Virus record (IMG/VR): IMGVR_UViG_3300000115_000108
Location: 5,603 to 31,685 of that record
Source: a virus
Length of the DNA stretch: 26,083 nt
Reading direction: 5' to 3' (one strand)
The notes under the pieces were generated by a model that worked only from the letters and a program-made list of their open reading frames with translations, was not told the origin of the DNA and ran no database searches. Positions 4,487-15,751 of this stretch are shown here, piece by piece. The first letter of the stretch is position 1, and the number at the start of each line of letters is the position of its first letter. A program made the translations under genes and the position numbers.

Positions 4487-4891
4487 TTATTTAGTATTTG
4501 CTATATCTACTATCCTTTGTATTAATGACCCTAATCCATTCTGTCTTTGCATTGTAAGTAGTTCTCTTACACCTAAAGGTAAAAAATCCTCTATAGTAAG
4601 AGCAGCCACTTCATCTCTAGGACAACCATTGACTAGGTCTGTTACTAACTTCGCTGTGCCTTTTGTTATAAATGCGTCAGCGTCTATTTTATATATCATT
4701 GTATTATCTTCTTTTACTCCGCCGATCAACCATAGATTACTAGCACAACCTCGTATTCTATTTTGATCTGTTTTTACTTCTTGTGGTAATGATTCTACGT
4801 CTTTAGCAATGTCAATTAAATATGCAAGTCTATCATGTCCTTGCAACATTTTAAGGTCATCACCCCTGGTCTGTATTCGCTGCTTTAACAT
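4487..4891 (-). CDS. sufE: SufE-like sulfur acceptor protein
   Basis: A 134-residue SufE-family protein, close to the E. coli SufE length of 138. RLAYLIDIAKDVESLP aligns with the SufE N-terminal helix, Cys49 in RIRGCASNLWL is the sulfur-accepting cysteine (E. coli Cys51, IQGCQSQVW), and KGTAKLVTDL and the LT-x-x-R-x-x-GL ending also match. SufE accepts persulfide from SufS and passes it to the SufBCD scaffold for iron-sulfur assembly. No SufS or scaffold gene is in the window, so it would act on host partners. The start at 4891 has AAGGGA six bases upstream and gives the family length; it overlaps the upstream gene by 32 bases. An ATG at 4951 would add 20 atypical residues. Confidence 0.85.
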   Translation of the reverse strand: MLKQRIQTRGDDLKMLQGHDRLAYLIDIAKDVESLPQEVKTDQNRIRGCASNLWLIGGVKEDNTMIYKIDADAFITKGTAKLVTDLVNGCPRDEVAALTIEDFLPLGVRELLTMQRQNGLGSLIQRIVDIANTK

Positions 4892-5456
4892 CTGCGATCC
4901 CTTCGGCAAACCATTCAGGCATAACTGCACCTGGTTTTTCCCATTTAGCAAATCTTACTTTTTCAAATATGTAATACTTACGATATGAACCTACTACATC
5001 ACCTGGTATCTTACAATACTCTGGCATTGCTGGTGTAGCGTCTGTAGCTACTACATTAAGTGGTGCATTTTTAGGTGGGTGTTTTAGTAGATCAGCAAGT
5101 TTATCAATAGATACATGATTAACATTTTTTTGCCATCTCAATTTGTATTCTTCGTTAAGAGCTACAAAGTGATTATATAACCATGTGTAATTGTATGCTG
5201 ATTTAATAACCCATTGTGTACTAGGGTGACCTAGCCAACCTGCTTTGTATAAAGTTGCTTCTTCGTTAGAATTGTCTAATCGCCATCTTTTAATCTTACG
5301 ACCATTCTTTGTAGTATCAAAATATTCTGTGCCGTCAAGCACACGTTTTGCTGTACATAACATCTGAGCAGACTCTAGTATCATTTTGATAATATGTTTA
5401 TCACACATCATCTTAGCAGCTGTTACAGGATTTTTATCAACATAAAATATATTCAT
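4860..5456 (-). CDS. conserved phage protein of unknown function (MNIF-x-DKHIIKMILE type)
   Basis: A 198-residue protein beginning MNIFYVDKNPVTAAKMMCDK, then HIIKMILESAQMLCTA. This N-terminus is shared by many T4-like phage proteins (DKH-V-VKM-x-LE-x-AQ-L-L). Aromatic-rich blocks follow: HPSTQWVIKSAYNYTWLYNH (about 77-96), GSYRKYYIFEK and FAKWEKP-x-x-PEWF near the end. His, Asp and Cys residues in the first 35 positions could be an active site, but no known enzyme can be assigned. Its 3' end overlaps the SufE start by 32 bases, and its start overlaps the stop of the 60-residue gene upstream (TAATG). Confidence 0.7.
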   Translation of the reverse strand: MNIFYVDKNPVTAAKMMCDKHIIKMILESAQMLCTAKRVLDGTEYFDTTKNGRKIKRWRLDNSNEEATLYKAGWLGHPSTQWVIKSAYNYTWLYNHFVALNEEYKLRWQKNVNHVSIDKLADLLKHPPKNAPLNVVATDATPAMPEYCKIPGDVVGSYRKYYIFEKVRFAKWEKPGAVMPEWFAEGIADVKAANTDQG

Positions 5457-12179: not shown

Positions 12180-12390
12180 TTTTCTTCCTAAACAAATTTA
12201 ATATTGATTTTTTTGTATTTGTTAATTGGGTTTTACTATCTGCCCAACTCTTTGTTTGATACTCAACAATTTTGTTTTTCTCACTTGTCAACCAGTTACT
12301 TACTGGATTTGCACTTGCCATATTCATTGATACTAGTATTACTGTAACTAATAACGTAGCAAATAGCAATGATTTTTTCATATTCCACAT
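12163..12390 (-). CDS. exported 75-residue protein
   Basis: A signal peptide (MKKSLLFATLLVTVILVSMN, then MASA and cleavage before NPVSNW) with a 50-residue mature, basic, Trp-containing helix-rich part and no cysteine. The ATG at 12390 overlaps the previous stop (TAATG) and has GGAAG five bases upstream; a second ATG at 12381 would begin MKKS directly. Function unknown; it may act at the membrane surface because the mature part is amphipathic. Confidence 0.66.
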   Translation of the reverse strand: MWNMKKSLLFATLLVTVILVSMNMASANPVSNWLTSEKNKIVEYQTKSWADSKTQLTNTKKSILNLFRKKNATQD

Positions 12391-12662
12391 TATGTCTTCC
12401 TTCCCATTGTTTTAAAATCAGCTTTATCAACTACTTGGTAGTTACCTTTATTATAGGCAATGCCGATCGTCTTGCCTTCAGGTAACTGTACTTTAGGTTT
12501 TGACTCTTTAGTACATGCACCAGATATTCTATCACTTGTAGGTATAGAATTTCTTTTTAGACCATTTATATCTAATGTATAGTCAGGTCTATTAAATCCT
12601 TTGAGAGTTCTGGTAAACGACTCTCTATTAATCTTTAACCATTTATCTTTTGTCATAATCAA
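12390..12662 (-). CDS. hypothetical 90-residue protein
   Basis: Not recognised. A basic soluble protein with KINRESFTRTLKGFNRPDY near the start, a short polar middle and a strand-rich C-terminus (GKTIGIAYNKGNYQVV). No cysteine motif, membrane segment or signal peptide. Its start overlaps the 2H-phosphoesterase-like gene by 20 bases and its stop overlaps the exported 75-residue gene. An ATG at codon 3 is an alternative start. Confidence 0.6.
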   Translation of the reverse strand: MIMTKDKWLKINRESFTRTLKGFNRPDYTLDINGLKRNSIPTSDRISGACTKESKPKVQLPEGKTIGIAYNKGNYQVVDKADFKTMGRKT

Positions 12663-13059
12663 TATATTTTATAGTTCCTTCTACGTATCCGTATTTCTTA
12701 TCTTTTACTTTAGGGTTTGTAAACATAGTGTTAGCGTCACCTGATTTGTAGCCATTCTTATGTGATAGTGTAATATGAGCAGCGCCTTTATCATGTCTTT
12801 TGATTCTATTATACTGTTTATCAAACATATTGTCAACCCATAATGCGTCAATGTGATTGTTTGCTCTGTAACCTTTGATAAACACACCTACTTTTTTACC
12901 TACAAGTTTAGAGTATTTGTTATAAACTTTCTTAATAGGTTTAAATGCAAGTGTAACGTGATCTGATACAAGTATATCTTTTGTAGCAAGTTTCTTTACA
13001 ACGTTACAACTTTGTCTATCTAATTGTACTGCAAAATATCCGTTCACTATTTCCACCAT
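12643..13059 (-). CDS. 2H-phosphoesterase-like protein
   Basis: A 138-residue protein with the two HxT motifs of the 2H phosphoesterase superfamily: His34-x-Thr36 in SDHVTLAF and His95-x-Thr97 in AHITLSH, about 60 residues apart, each on a predicted strand. The start GYFAVQLD also fits the first strand of the fold, and the region resembles the cyclic phosphodiesterase domain of tRNA-ligase-type proteins. Family members open 2',3'-cyclic phosphates or cleave 2'-5' and cyclic nucleotide linkages; T4 Acb1 of this superfamily destroys CBASS signals. Which substrate this one has cannot be told. It overlaps both neighbours (20 and 13 bases). Confidence 0.65.
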   Translation of the reverse strand: MVEIVNGYFAVQLDRQSCNVVKKLATKDILVSDHVTLAFKPIKKVYNKYSKLVGKKVGVFIKGYRANNHIDALWVDNMFDKQYNRIKRHDKGAAHITLSHKNGYKSGDANTMFTNPKVKDKKYGYVEGTIKYIDYDKR

Positions 13060-13316
13060 TCATTCTCTTGTTCAATTGCAACATCAACATCTGATCCTTC
13101 TTTTGTTGATACAGATTTTATTTGAGCAAAATAGCACCAGTTAGACCCAAAGGTAACTGCACCTGTATATCCTAGATCAGTATCGTATTCTTTAGCATTT
13201 AATGAGGTATCATCTTCAGCAGCAATGTCTTCTTTTCTTACTGCGATACCGATGTTAACTATCTCACCAGTTCTACCTTTTTCGTCTGTTATCATATCTC
13301 CTAATTTAATTTGCAT
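13047..13316 (-). CDS. hypothetical 89-residue acidic protein
   Basis: Not recognised. The N-terminus (IKLGDMITDEKGRTGEIVNI) is a typical small SH3/KOW-like barrel start, in which GD-x-I-T-D-x-x-GRTG-x-I forms the first strands; the rest is acidic, with an aromatic segment GSNWCYFAQI. It may be a small beta-barrel protein. Its start lies ten bases after the 140-residue gene and its stop overlaps the 2H-phosphoesterase-like gene. Confidence 0.6.
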   Translation of the reverse strand: MQIKLGDMITDEKGRTGEIVNIGIAVRKEDIAAEDDTSLNAKEYDTDLGYTGAVTFGSNWCYFAQIKSVSTKEGSDVDVAIEQENEWWK

Positions 13317-13326
13317 AGTGTCTCCT

Positions 13327-13749
13327 TTAGTTTAAGTTGTAAATATAATTTGGGTTAAGTTTTTTAGTCTTGTAATTCTTTGTAAAATCAGGATCAAAAT
13401 CTTTTCTGAAACCTTGTCTACCATTAAACAATTGACCATAGTCGTTAAATAGATTGTCATCACCTGCAGCCGTTTCTGGACCGAATACATCTGCATATGT
13501 TTGATAGTACTCGTCTGGATATACTATCTCAATACCAGTAGCACCTGTGAAATTAGTAGCGTCTTCTCTATACTTTTTGTTAGCATAGGCTTTGAATTTA
13601 AGTAATTGTTTTCTATAGTATTTGATTTTCTCTATAGGTACATTTCTGTAGATAGTAGCTGAAGACCAGAAAGTATCATATTCTGTTTCAGGATCAACGT
13701 ATTCTCTTTTGTAAATAATATTAAAACTTTTAAAGTATTCTTTTGTCAT
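13327..13749 (-). CDS. hypothetical 140-residue Tyr-rich protein
   Basis: Not recognised. It is rich in Tyr, Asp and Asn; features include EYFKSFNIIYKREYVDPETE near the start, KIKYYRKQLLKFKAYANKKY (a basic helix, about 41-60) and a low-complexity DFDPDFTKNYKTKKLNPNY ending. No signal peptide or known motif. It is the first gene after the promoter at 13760-13788, heading the accessory operon with the barrel-like and 2H-phosphoesterase-like genes. Confidence 0.62.
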   Translation of the reverse strand: MTKEYFKSFNIIYKREYVDPETEYDTFWSSATIYRNVPIEKIKYYRKQLLKFKAYANKKYREDATNFTGATGIEIVYPDEYYQTYADVFGPETAAGDDNLFNDYGQLFNGRQGFRKDFDPDFTKNYKTKKLNPNYIYNLN

Positions 13750-14393: not shown

Positions 14394-14550
14394 TATCATG
14401 CTCAAAGATTGCGTCATCATCATCTATAGAAGTATCAGCACCACAAAATGCACACGTGGTAGGCTCATTGTCTTCATCTTTCCACTTGACCCAATAACTA
14501 ACATCACAGTTAGGACAAGTTATTTGTACTTTGTTTATATTATCTGACAT
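14368..14550 (-). CDS. small zinc ribbon protein with acidic tail
   Basis: A 60-residue protein with two Cys pairs, CPNC (residues 12-15) and CAFC (33-36), making one zinc ribbon with a Trp-rich hairpin between (SYWVKWKDED). The C-terminal 20 residues are almost wholly Asp/Glu/Asn. Such proteins often bind RNA polymerase or DNA-associated partners, or mimic DNA with the acidic tail, but no function can be named. It overlaps the hydrolase paralogue (16 bases) and the RuvC-like gene (26 bases). Confidence 0.72.
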   Translation of the reverse strand: MSDNINKVQITCPNCDVSYWVKWKDEDNEPTTCAFCGADTSIDDDDAIFEHDNEEEDDWN

Positions 14551-15083
14551 TCGTAATCCCTTATGTATCTTATTTTATCAAATAACTTTGCTTCTGCAAC
14601 ATCTCTCCATGCAACTGATAAAGCATTTTGAGTTTGCTCTGTAGCAGTTGTACCAGTTATCTGATAGTCGGCACACATTGTTGATAATACTTGAACATTA
14701 TAACCTAACTTTGCCCAATTGATAGCTGATATAGGTTTATTTCTAAACACACAACCAGATGTATTTGTGCCACCTATTATGATATTATTTATTTCATAAC
14801 CCATTTTTCTTACCTCTATTTTTATACTCTCAATAGTGCTACTATCACAATGTACAGTTTTCCATATGTGTCTGTTTTCTATTTTCATCATCTTTGCAAC
14901 TTCTTCCGTACGTTTGTGTTTTTCAGGATTGTGATTAGAAATAATAATAAGAGGTTTTTCTCTTACAGGATTTAATAACCATGCTAATGTAGAATAACGT
15001 TGATTATTTGTGTGTTCACTACCTAACGCAGGATGTCCTTCAAAATCAATAAGTAATATAATTGTTGTAGGTTTTAAATCCAT
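14535..15083 (-). CDS. isochorismatase-like cysteine hydrolase, paralogue B
   Basis: A 182-residue protein of the isochorismatase/nicotinamidase superfamily, with the probable triad intact: Asp13 in ILLIDFEGHPALG, Lys75 in HIWKTVH and Cys111 in IGGTNTSGCV. NWAKLGYNVQVLSTMCADY follows as the typical helix and strand. Paralogue A lies 12 kb away and shares GHPALG-x-E-x2-NN-x-RY. Characterised superfamily members hydrolyse isochorismate, nicotinamide or N-carbamoyl substrates; a role in NAD metabolism is a guess suggested by the neighbouring flavoprotein. The start overlaps the nitroreductase gene by 10 bases. Confidence 0.7.
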   Translation of the reverse strand: MDLKPTTIILLIDFEGHPALGSEHTNNQRYSTLAWLLNPVREKPLIIISNHNPEKHKRTEEVAKMMKIENRHIWKTVHCDSSTIESIKIEVRKMGYEINNIIIGGTNTSGCVFRNKPISAINWAKLGYNVQVLSTMCADYQITGTTATEQTQNALSVAWRDVAEAKLFDKIRYIRDYECQII

Positions 15084-15751
15084 TTTATTACTTCTTCTGG
15101 TTCTGGTTTCATATCCATTTTTCTTTCTTCTTGTCCCATACGATTTCTACGATATAGTTTTGCTTTACCTATACTACCTAACAATACAACAGGATATTTT
15201 ACCCAAGGTAAATCTGACCATGCTTTAAGATTAGAATATGGAAAACATGCTATTGTAGATGTATCTAAACCTTTTTCTAACGCAAAGGCTGATAAATTAG
15301 CCATAAACATACCTACTTCAGTTGCCGTTGTTCTTATCATTGATTCTACTTTTTTTGAATCTGTTTGTTCAAAATAGTCACCTTGATCTATAGACCTTTG
15401 ATAGTAAGCATTTGGTTTACACACCCTTTGTGTAAAAACTAATAGATAAGGTGCTGAGCTTAAATGTTTAAAATAAGGATTGTATCCATCTTCCTTGTGA
15501 TCTTTAATTTCTTTTTCATTTATTTGTTTTTTATTCATCATACTTTTTTGCCATATAGAGTGTTTTTCATTTACCTTGTCAGGACCTAACACATTACAAT
15601 GATATGGCATAAAACTATTTTTAGATGGTGTAACTTTCCATGCTTTCCATAGTAAATCTTCAATCAATTTTTTTTCAGGTATGTTTTCTGTATCATACAT
15701 AAAAACATGCTGTCTTCTATTTAATAAATTTAAGATTGGTTGTTGATTCAT
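15074..15751 (-). CDS. nitroreductase-like flavoprotein
   Basis: A 225-residue protein with the nitroreductase fold pattern: LLNRRQHVFMYDTENIPEKK (R-R-x-x-R/H-x-F opening), LLWKAWKVTPSKNSFMPY (A-x-x-x-PS-x-x-N-x-QPW equivalent, FMN binding), NLSAFALEKGLDT (second FMN segment) and PVVLLGSIGKAK near the end (I-x-IG). These enzymes use FMN and NAD(P)H. Nitroreductase genes occur in several T4-like cyanophages, with unknown substrates. It overlaps NrdB (TAATG-type junction at 15751) and the hydrolase, so it is in the ribonucleotide reductase transcript. Confidence 0.78.
   Translation of the reverse strand: MNQQPILNLLNRRQHVFMYDTENIPEKKLIEDLLWKAWKVTPSKNSFMPYHCNVLGPDKVNEKHSIWQKSMMNKKQINEKEIKDHKEDGYNPYFKHLSSAPYLLVFTQRVCKPNAYYQRSIDQGDYFEQTDSKKVESMIRTTATEVGMFMANLSAFALEKGLDTSTIACFPYSNLKAWSDLPWVKYPVVLLGSIGKAKLYRRNRMGQEERKMDMKPEPEEVIKWI

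Follow-up and report, generated by a model that had tools for sequence, protein, structure and literature searches.

In the window (the whole 26,083-nucleotide stretch of viral DNA analysed here), we found on the minus strand a gene whose product is, by the fold of its predicted model, a 2H protein. The gene is under purifying selection. In the reading that we consider the likeliest, with a probability of about 0.45, its product would be a 2′,3′-cyclic phosphodiesterase that clears cyclic termini from RNA cleaved in the course of infection. RNA-repair or nucleotide-signal roles have already been proposed for phage 2H enzymes in passages of PMC7824862 and PMC9503650, and the anti-CBASS role of Acb1 has been shown, according to passages of PMC9117128. 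The window protein is of the same kind as these earlier phage 2H domains and lies beyond the Pfam and PHROG models, and we therefore regard its family as a new sequence family of a known enzyme kind.

The source record is a 31.7-kb virus fragment. Both its DNA as such and its ribonucleotide reductase are nearest to the Pelagibacter phages Mosig EXVC030M and HTVC008M (Kyanoviridae), and a large part of the window is collinear with Mosig. The carrier is a phage known only from uncultured material, with relatives among the viruses of marine bacteria. Phages of SAR11 occur in great abundance in the ocean, yet in the cultured relatives the genes of this region are in many cases labelled hypothetical. 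An enzyme family that is conserved, can be assayed and sits in a fixed slot could serve as a direct probe of RNA cutting or cyclic-nucleotide production in the infected host.

The gene, its motifs and its relatives

The earlier note on this DNA had claimed an open reading frame of 138 residues at 12643-13059. The frame is real and lies on the minus strand, which that note left unmentioned; frame 1 of the plus strand is interrupted by stops across the same interval. The length of 138 aa holds for translation from the ATG at 13059, but codon 5 is a GTG at 13047, 12 bases inside the annotated ATG, and the true start is probably this GTG, which gives a protein of 134 aa. This start is favoured because, in alignment A3 (the query plus 29 chosen full-length relatives, not all relatives), 17 of the 29 begin with ATG at this place, and because the GTG shares one base with the stop of the upstream gene (Table 1).

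Table 1. Positions of the features discussed; coordinates refer to the window unless a locus or genome is named
Feature	Position	Strand	Basis or content
Putative 2H phosphoesterase gene	12643..13059	-	ORF, relatives, start comparison; 138 aa, or 134 aa from GTG 13047
Y8, candidate ribose-contacting tyrosine (register of CNPase Tyr168)	13036..13038	-	Y in 30/30 A3 rows
First catalytic motif (putative), H34-V-T36 (HVT)	12952..12960	-	27/27 relatives found without motif; 30/30 A3 rows; pattern match
F39, candidate base-stacking aromatic (H+5, as CNPase Phe235)	12943..12945	-	F in 9/30, Y in 21/30 A3 rows
Second catalytic motif (putative), H95-I-T97 (HIT)	12769..12777	-	27/27 relatives found without motif; 30/30 A3 rows; pattern match
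Upstream neighbour, 89 aa, no known function	13047..13316	-	synteny; Mosig homologue at 55%; no Pfam family
140-aa neighbour, no known function, conserved upstream of the 2H gene	13327..13749	-	synteny
90-aa neighbour, no known function, conserved downstream of the 2H gene	12390..12662	-	Mosig homologue; no Pfam family
DUF6267 gene	L180:2501-3721 (G001 149477-150700 with stop)		profile match E 5e-127
Leader-bearing protein block	L070:9477-16101		DUF6267, adenylate kinase, AAA_33/zeta-like kinase, 929-aa protein

Both HxT motifs on which the earlier note had relied (His34/Thr36 and His95/Thr97) are present, but the bare pair as stated there proves nothing, because its frequency is no better than chance: an H-x-T/S pair with a spacing of 45-85 appeared in 1.6% of shuffles of the 2H protein, in 4 of the 214 predicted proteins of G001, a larger relative virus record (6.8 expected), and in 2 of the 50 minus-strand ORFs of the window (1.04 expected). 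The pair with hydrophobic flanks (H-h-T/S-h twice) was found in 5e-5 of the shuffles, in one of the 50 window ORFs (0.02 expected) and in one of the 214 G001 proteins (0.14 expected). A similar hydrophobic motif pattern matched only the 2H gene in G001, and a DNA pattern made from the hydrophobic motif gave one match in the window and 0/100 in shuffles.

Furthermore, both motifs are kept in 27/27 distinct relatives, 73-100% identical to the query, which were found by peptide patterns containing neither motif; the set comprises the distinct proteins from 53 complete IMG/VR loci, two partial loci (L054 and L055) being left out. The histidines, whose conservation in homologues the earlier note had named as a point to check, are thus retained in every relative found independently of the motifs. 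All four motif residues are also present in the 30/30 rows of A3 (relatives 53-96% identical), a count that is partly circular because many of the divergent rows came from motif searches. Besides H34, T36, H95 and T97, the invariant residues of A3 include Y8, D33, R65, W74, S99, K101, G107, D108, N110, F113, Y125 and E127. The median dN/dS was 0.24 over 433 of the 435 A3 pairs (dS 0.05-2). Chance as the origin of the motifs was dropped.

The relatives were collected by several routes. In IMG/VR, the protein query yielded 55 loci and a profile query 60 loci. The two-motif DNA pattern with a spacing of 61 and 62 codons matched 33 and 49 stretches, respectively. The pattern scans together with the earlier loci gave 49 distinct proteins, 47 of them relatives; the other two (L101 and L120) were dropped as unrelated chance matches. 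A tblastn search of 50,697 phage records, from which records very near the window were possibly left out, gave no match to the window 2H protein at E 0.01 or at E 10, and none at E 1 to L125, the most divergent member. The cultured relatives Mosig and HTVC008M are both within this collection, so that the gene was not found by tblastn in either of them, and in the examined stretches of the two genomes neither the 2H gene nor the 140-aa neighbour had a match. Relatives were found only in uncultured virus contigs and one MAG: in a search of 84,980 genomes, two contigs (L075 and L076) of a single Porticoccaceae MAG carried the 2H gene at 66%. These copies are most simply explained as phage sequence binned into the MAG, which both contigs probably are, and the idea of a host gene was dropped.

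The earlier note had placed the gene in an accessory operon. A dense co-directional cluster is indeed seen, and the gene was not found in the two cultured relatives, but the slot itself is strongly conserved among carriers: the 2H gene keeps a fixed position in pelagiphage-like contigs. This was counted over 61 neighbourhoods that differ from one another in the gene together with the 150 bases flanking it at either end; some could stem from one and the same virus, and a side was testable when at least two genes were present on it. Of the 56 testable distinct neighbourhoods, 49 have the 140-aa gene at most four genes upstream, and in 5 of the remaining 7 it lies downstream; the 90-aa gene is at most four genes downstream in 45/48. 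In many cases, the 89-aa upstream gene gives way to a different gene, of 135-158 aa. In Pfam, the 140-aa protein matched only Peptidase_M54, at E 0.047, below the cut-off. Since the neighbours have no informative Pfam match, guilt by association gives no function.

Several other genes of the window could be named. Two similar proteins resembling isochorismatase-type cysteine hydrolases (LLIDFxGHPALG, GGxNTxGCV) are encoded on the minus strand at 2011-2628 and 14535-15083, of which only the latter touches PF00857 (E 0.027, below the cut-off). On the same strand lie a SufE-like Fe-S protein (4487-4951; PF02657, E 8.5e-28), a pyrimidine-dimer DNA glycosylase (4860-5456; PF03013, E 1.5e-7), which we take to correspond to T4 DenV, and a nitroreductase-like protein (15074-15751; PF00881, E 1.8e-7), whose gene has one base in common with an nrdB-like gene and is present in some relatives and missing from others. 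In Mosig, a tmRNA is annotated at L073:3468-3806, in the stretch collinear with the low end of the window; ARAGORN found none in the window.

Predicted fold and family assignment

As the earlier note had suggested, the structure of the 2H protein was predicted and compared with Acb1 and the cyclic phosphodiesterase (CPD) domains of tRNA ligases. The AlphaFold2 model, built from 17 sequences (pLDDT 77.9, pTM 0.74), has the two-lobed 2H fold, and its top PDB matches are 2H enzymes. In Foldseek, all 50 PDB matches listed were 2H enzymes or their close kin; the fungal Trl1 kinase-CPD 6u05 was the only PDB match below 0.001 (E 3e-4), followed by many CNPase entries. VIA-align ranked CNPase highest (Z 11.2, 128-130 residues, rmsd 3.2-3.8), then the Trl1 CPD 6u05 (Z 9.3, 134 residues, rmsd 3.7), goldfish RICH (Z 9.1), Acb1 7t26 (Z 7.9, 109 residues, rmsd 3.6), a Burkholderia phage phosphodiesterase (Z 6.7), the Arabidopsis Appr>p CPDase 1fsi (Z 6.6, 120 residues, rmsd 5.5) and the 2′,5′-phosphodiesterase domain of rotavirus VP3, 5af2 (Z 5.6, 107 residues); a Z below 8 may mean merely a common arrangement, and Z gaps of the size seen partly reflect the aligned length. 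CNPase and Trl1 CPD thus come nearer to the model than Acb1 does. Taken together, the conserved motifs with their hydrophobic flanks and the bilobed fold of the predicted model uphold the assignment to the 2H superfamily that the earlier note had made; within the superfamily the model leans, not decisively, to CNPase and Trl1.

In a viral model library, the seven matches below 0.001 were giant-virus proteins, two retroviral envelope polyproteins and two unnamed proteins. A Marseillevirus protein annotated as "RNA ligase" followed at E 2e-3, and three Acb1 models at E 0.012, 0.082 and 0.097. Walleye dermal sarcoma virus, one of the retroviruses matched, is named with a 2H domain in a passage of PMC9503650.

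Profile searches placed the protein outside the known sequence families. The window protein matched no Pfam or PHROG model at E <= 1 and no PDB sequence. PF05881 and PF08302, which we take to be the CNPase and tRNA-ligase CPD family profiles, were likewise without a match to it at E <= 1. Among the 30 A3 members, Pfam gave ten weak families; the only 2H-type matches were Acb1 PF23474 (E 0.04) and 2H-SAK (E 0.17), in one member each, and the others were left uninterpreted. PHROG gave 14 weak families, mostly unnamed, including phrog_431 in 12 members (best E 0.0014) and, at 0.087, an abasic-site endonuclease family, which is a named one; we accepted none of them as membership. The PHROG of T4 Acb1, phrog_755, scored E 6e-4 in one of the 30 members, L125, with the motifs crossed and no passing stretch. 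As a positive control, T4 Acb1 itself scored 2.7e-60 with PF23474 and 5.3e-68 with phrog_755. PF13563 matched 11 of the 14 control genomes and had no match in the window's own record. In hhalign, the 2H family gave no significant match to an Acb1 alignment (probability 3.6%, 14 columns), to T4 Acb1 alone (2.3%) or, in global mode only, to CNPase. Searches of PDB sequences with the A1 and A3 profiles returned only glucansucrases, dextransucrase included (E 0.13-0.41), and were dismissed as chance, and a joint MAFFT alignment with CNPase was not used, the CNPase motifs being misaligned in it.

Vertebrate CNPase is, by its catalytic domain, the known enzyme that the protein most resembles in predicted fold: it is the best fold match, has two HxT motifs, and its Tyr168 and Phe235 may have aromatics in register in the phage protein. 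The two differ in sequence, with 12-14% identity in the CNPase rows listed, in length (about 210 vs 134-138 residues), and at CNPase Arg307, where the 2H family has A, S or D at residue 93 (paired by motif spacing). The Trl1 CPD is similar by fold in the model comparison, but belongs to a tRNA ligase that combines several domains, among them a kinase, whereas the phage 2H protein stands alone.

Possible substrates of the 2H protein

We propose that the gene product would be a small, single-domain, metal-independent 2H phosphoesterase made in the infected cell. Its two lobes would each contribute one H-h-T motif, the two facing a shared cleft, and, by analogy with CNPase, one histidine would activate water and the other protonate the leaving ribose oxygen, such that a 2′,3′-cyclic phosphate would be opened to a 2′-phosphate. 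The likeliest substrate may be the cyclic end that metal-independent RNases leave on tRNA or mRNA in infection, and the role could be the clearing or healing of RNA ends or the recycling of 2′,3′-cyclic nucleotides. The nearer fold match to CNPase and Trl1 than to Acb1 leans towards RNA ends: the best solved-structure matches of the model are 2′,3′-cyclic phosphodiesterases, and the Marseillevirus "RNA ligase" is among the viral ones. In a relative genome, the presence of a kinase and of a KWDG protein with weak ligase matches argues for the same reading. Against it stand the position of the 2H gene, which lies apart from both the kinase and DUF6267 and whose neighbours have no known function, and the 2′-phosphate product, which without KptA would block classical sealing.

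In CNPase, according to passages of PMC4643303, His309 activates water and His230 protonates the 3′-oxygen, the base is stacked between Phe235 and Val321, and Tyr168 makes contact with the ribose, Tyr168 and Phe235 being called "crucial for substrate binding". From the alignment ranges (VIA-align pairs model residue 3 with CNPase 163 at the alignment start) and the motif spacing, we infer that Y8 corresponds to Tyr168 and F/Y39 to Phe235. Acb1 also has aromatics at both places, namely Y12 and, in the T4 sequence, a tyrosine five residues past the first motif histidine, and Y8 and F/Y39 therefore fit a likeness to either CNPase or Acb1.

The main rival reading, which we hold to be somewhat unlikely, is an Acb1-like counter-defence enzyme that degrades CBASS signals (cyclic di- or trinucleotides) or a different nucleotide second messenger. 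Acb1 (T4 gene 57B, PF23474) is a compact phage 2H enzyme of the same superfamily and of similar length, its structure aligns with the model over 109 residues, and three Acb1 models are found among the viral matches. Among all PHROG matches of the members, the best is to the Acb1 family, and one member also touches PF23474; by eye, Acb1 Y12, E141 and W74 could correspond to Y8, the invariant E127 and Y64; and Acb1 itself acts via a cyclic-phosphate intermediate, according to a passage of PMC9117128. However, CNPase and the Trl1 CPD align better, the Z of Acb1 lying below 8, and the phrog_755 match pairs the first motif of L125 with the second motif of the family. Moreover, neither the hhalign comparisons nor the window protein's own profile searches gave a significant match; nothing in the 2H family seems to fit Acb1 F107 (residue 89 varies in A3) or the W147 lid, the tail being short, with Y135 kept in 21/30 A3 rows and no tryptophan.

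It is quite unlikely that the protein acts on Appr>p. The Arabidopsis CPDase does align with the model, but less well than CNPase or Acb1, and the search of the six virus records gave no match to KptA, the maker of Appr>p, or to macro domains. G001 encodes a CTP_transf_like domain (E 2e-4, just over the cut-off), which we take to be NMNAT-like and which would suit this substrate, as would the discussion of 2H domains in ADP-ribose networks in passages of PMC9503650.

Another substrate for the same fold, such as linear 2′-5′ oligoadenylate, or a 3′ exoribonuclease activity, seems a shade less probable still: 2H members with such activities exist and rotavirus VP3 is among the matches, but at the bottom of the 2H fold matches listed, and we know of no 2-5A pathway in bacteria, which counts against a 2-5A substrate. 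That the protein is not an active 2H enzyme at all, with chance motifs or a binding role, as the frequency of the bare motif pair and the lack of a Pfam or PHROG family for the window protein might suggest, is very improbable in view of the motifs kept in all independently found relatives, the rarity of the flanked motif in shuffles, the uniformly 2H-type Foldseek matches listed and the low dN/dS.

Kinase and ligase-like genes in carrier genomes

The preferred reading, the clearing of cyclic RNA ends, raises the matter of repair partners. The earlier note had remarked that neither RNA ligase nor kinase can be seen in the window, which is true of the window; the larger relative G001 encodes a P-loop kinase of the AAA_33 family and also DUF6267, which is ligase-like. 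Partners were sought in six virus records, G001 at 165.7 kb and five fragments of 26-34 kb. The classical RNA ligases PF09414 and PF09511 and RtcB PF01139 had no match in the six records; for PF09511, the control genomes gave none over the cut-off either, so the sensitivity of that search is unproven. KptA PF01885 and macro domains also had no match in the six. G001 has one tRNA gene.

An AAA_33 P-loop kinase was over the cut-off in G001, G003 and G005, but AAA_33 is no marker of an RNA kinase because it matches 14/14 control genomes; the best PDB sequence match of the G001 kinase is a zeta toxin (E 4e-5). G001 also encodes an adenylate kinase, as well as a protein of 929 aa whose cytidylyltransferase-like domain narrowly passes the cut-off and whose Pol-beta-like matches fall short of it. 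Several proteins of the corresponding block in L070 (Table 1) carry a short N-terminal leader, which we take to resemble that of T4 internal head proteins, and the block proteins are possibly packaged and injected. The 2H protein has no leader like those around DUF6267, and its being a packaged internal protein was rejected. Unlike in Trl1, the 2H gene is far from the kinase and ligase-like genes in G001.

DUF6267 carries the sequence KWDG at 58-61, invariant in 24/24 sequences of alignment A4 (24 of the 80 fetched DUF6267 loci; L257, with a stop in the sequence, was left out). Of the 470 phage records in which it was found, 455 bear the name Synechococcus, Cyanophage or Prochlorococcus; HTVC008M has it too. 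Its predicted model is weak (pLDDT 69.7, pTM 0.51), the motif stretch 47-61 being below 50. Foldseek gave no PDB match below 0.001 for this model, with the Trl1 ligase domain 6n67 at rank 2 (E 0.19). In VIA-align, the ten highest rows (Z 5.8-7.5) were not ligases; DNA and RNA ligases made up 19 of the 50 matches listed (Z 4.5-5.7), in 8 of which the alignment begins beside K58, at model residues 57-60, and in 11 at other residues; the highest ligase row was T4 Rnl2, with an rmsd of 15.6. Tentatively, DUF6267 may be regarded as a candidate for an unrecognised nucleotidyltransferase or RNA ligase family; the papers searched yielded no literature on it.

HTVC008M has the kinase and DUF6267 and no 2H match, and IMGVR_UViG_3300017710_000003 carries both the 2H gene (L108) and DUF6267 (L208); co-occurrence of the two is therefore possible, not obligatory. 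A bolder and distinctly doubtful extension would be that T4-like pelagiphages run a split, Trl1-like RNA repair, in which the stand-alone 2H protein would open cyclic RNA ends, the P-loop kinase with its putative virion-targeting leader would phosphorylate 5′ ends, and DUF6267, with a leader of that kind and its invariant KWDG, would seal them, the kit being partly injected with the DNA. Were this so, DUF6267 would be an unrecognised ligase or nucleotidyltransferase family in hundreds of phages, mostly of cyanobacteria, and if it and the kinase are partners, many hypothetical proteins of cyanophages and pelagiphages would gain a role. We regard DUF6267 as the freshest lead. Elsewhere in G001, at 128268-128564 (L062), an aspartyl/asparaginyl hydroxylase-type match (PF05118) was found over the cut-off.
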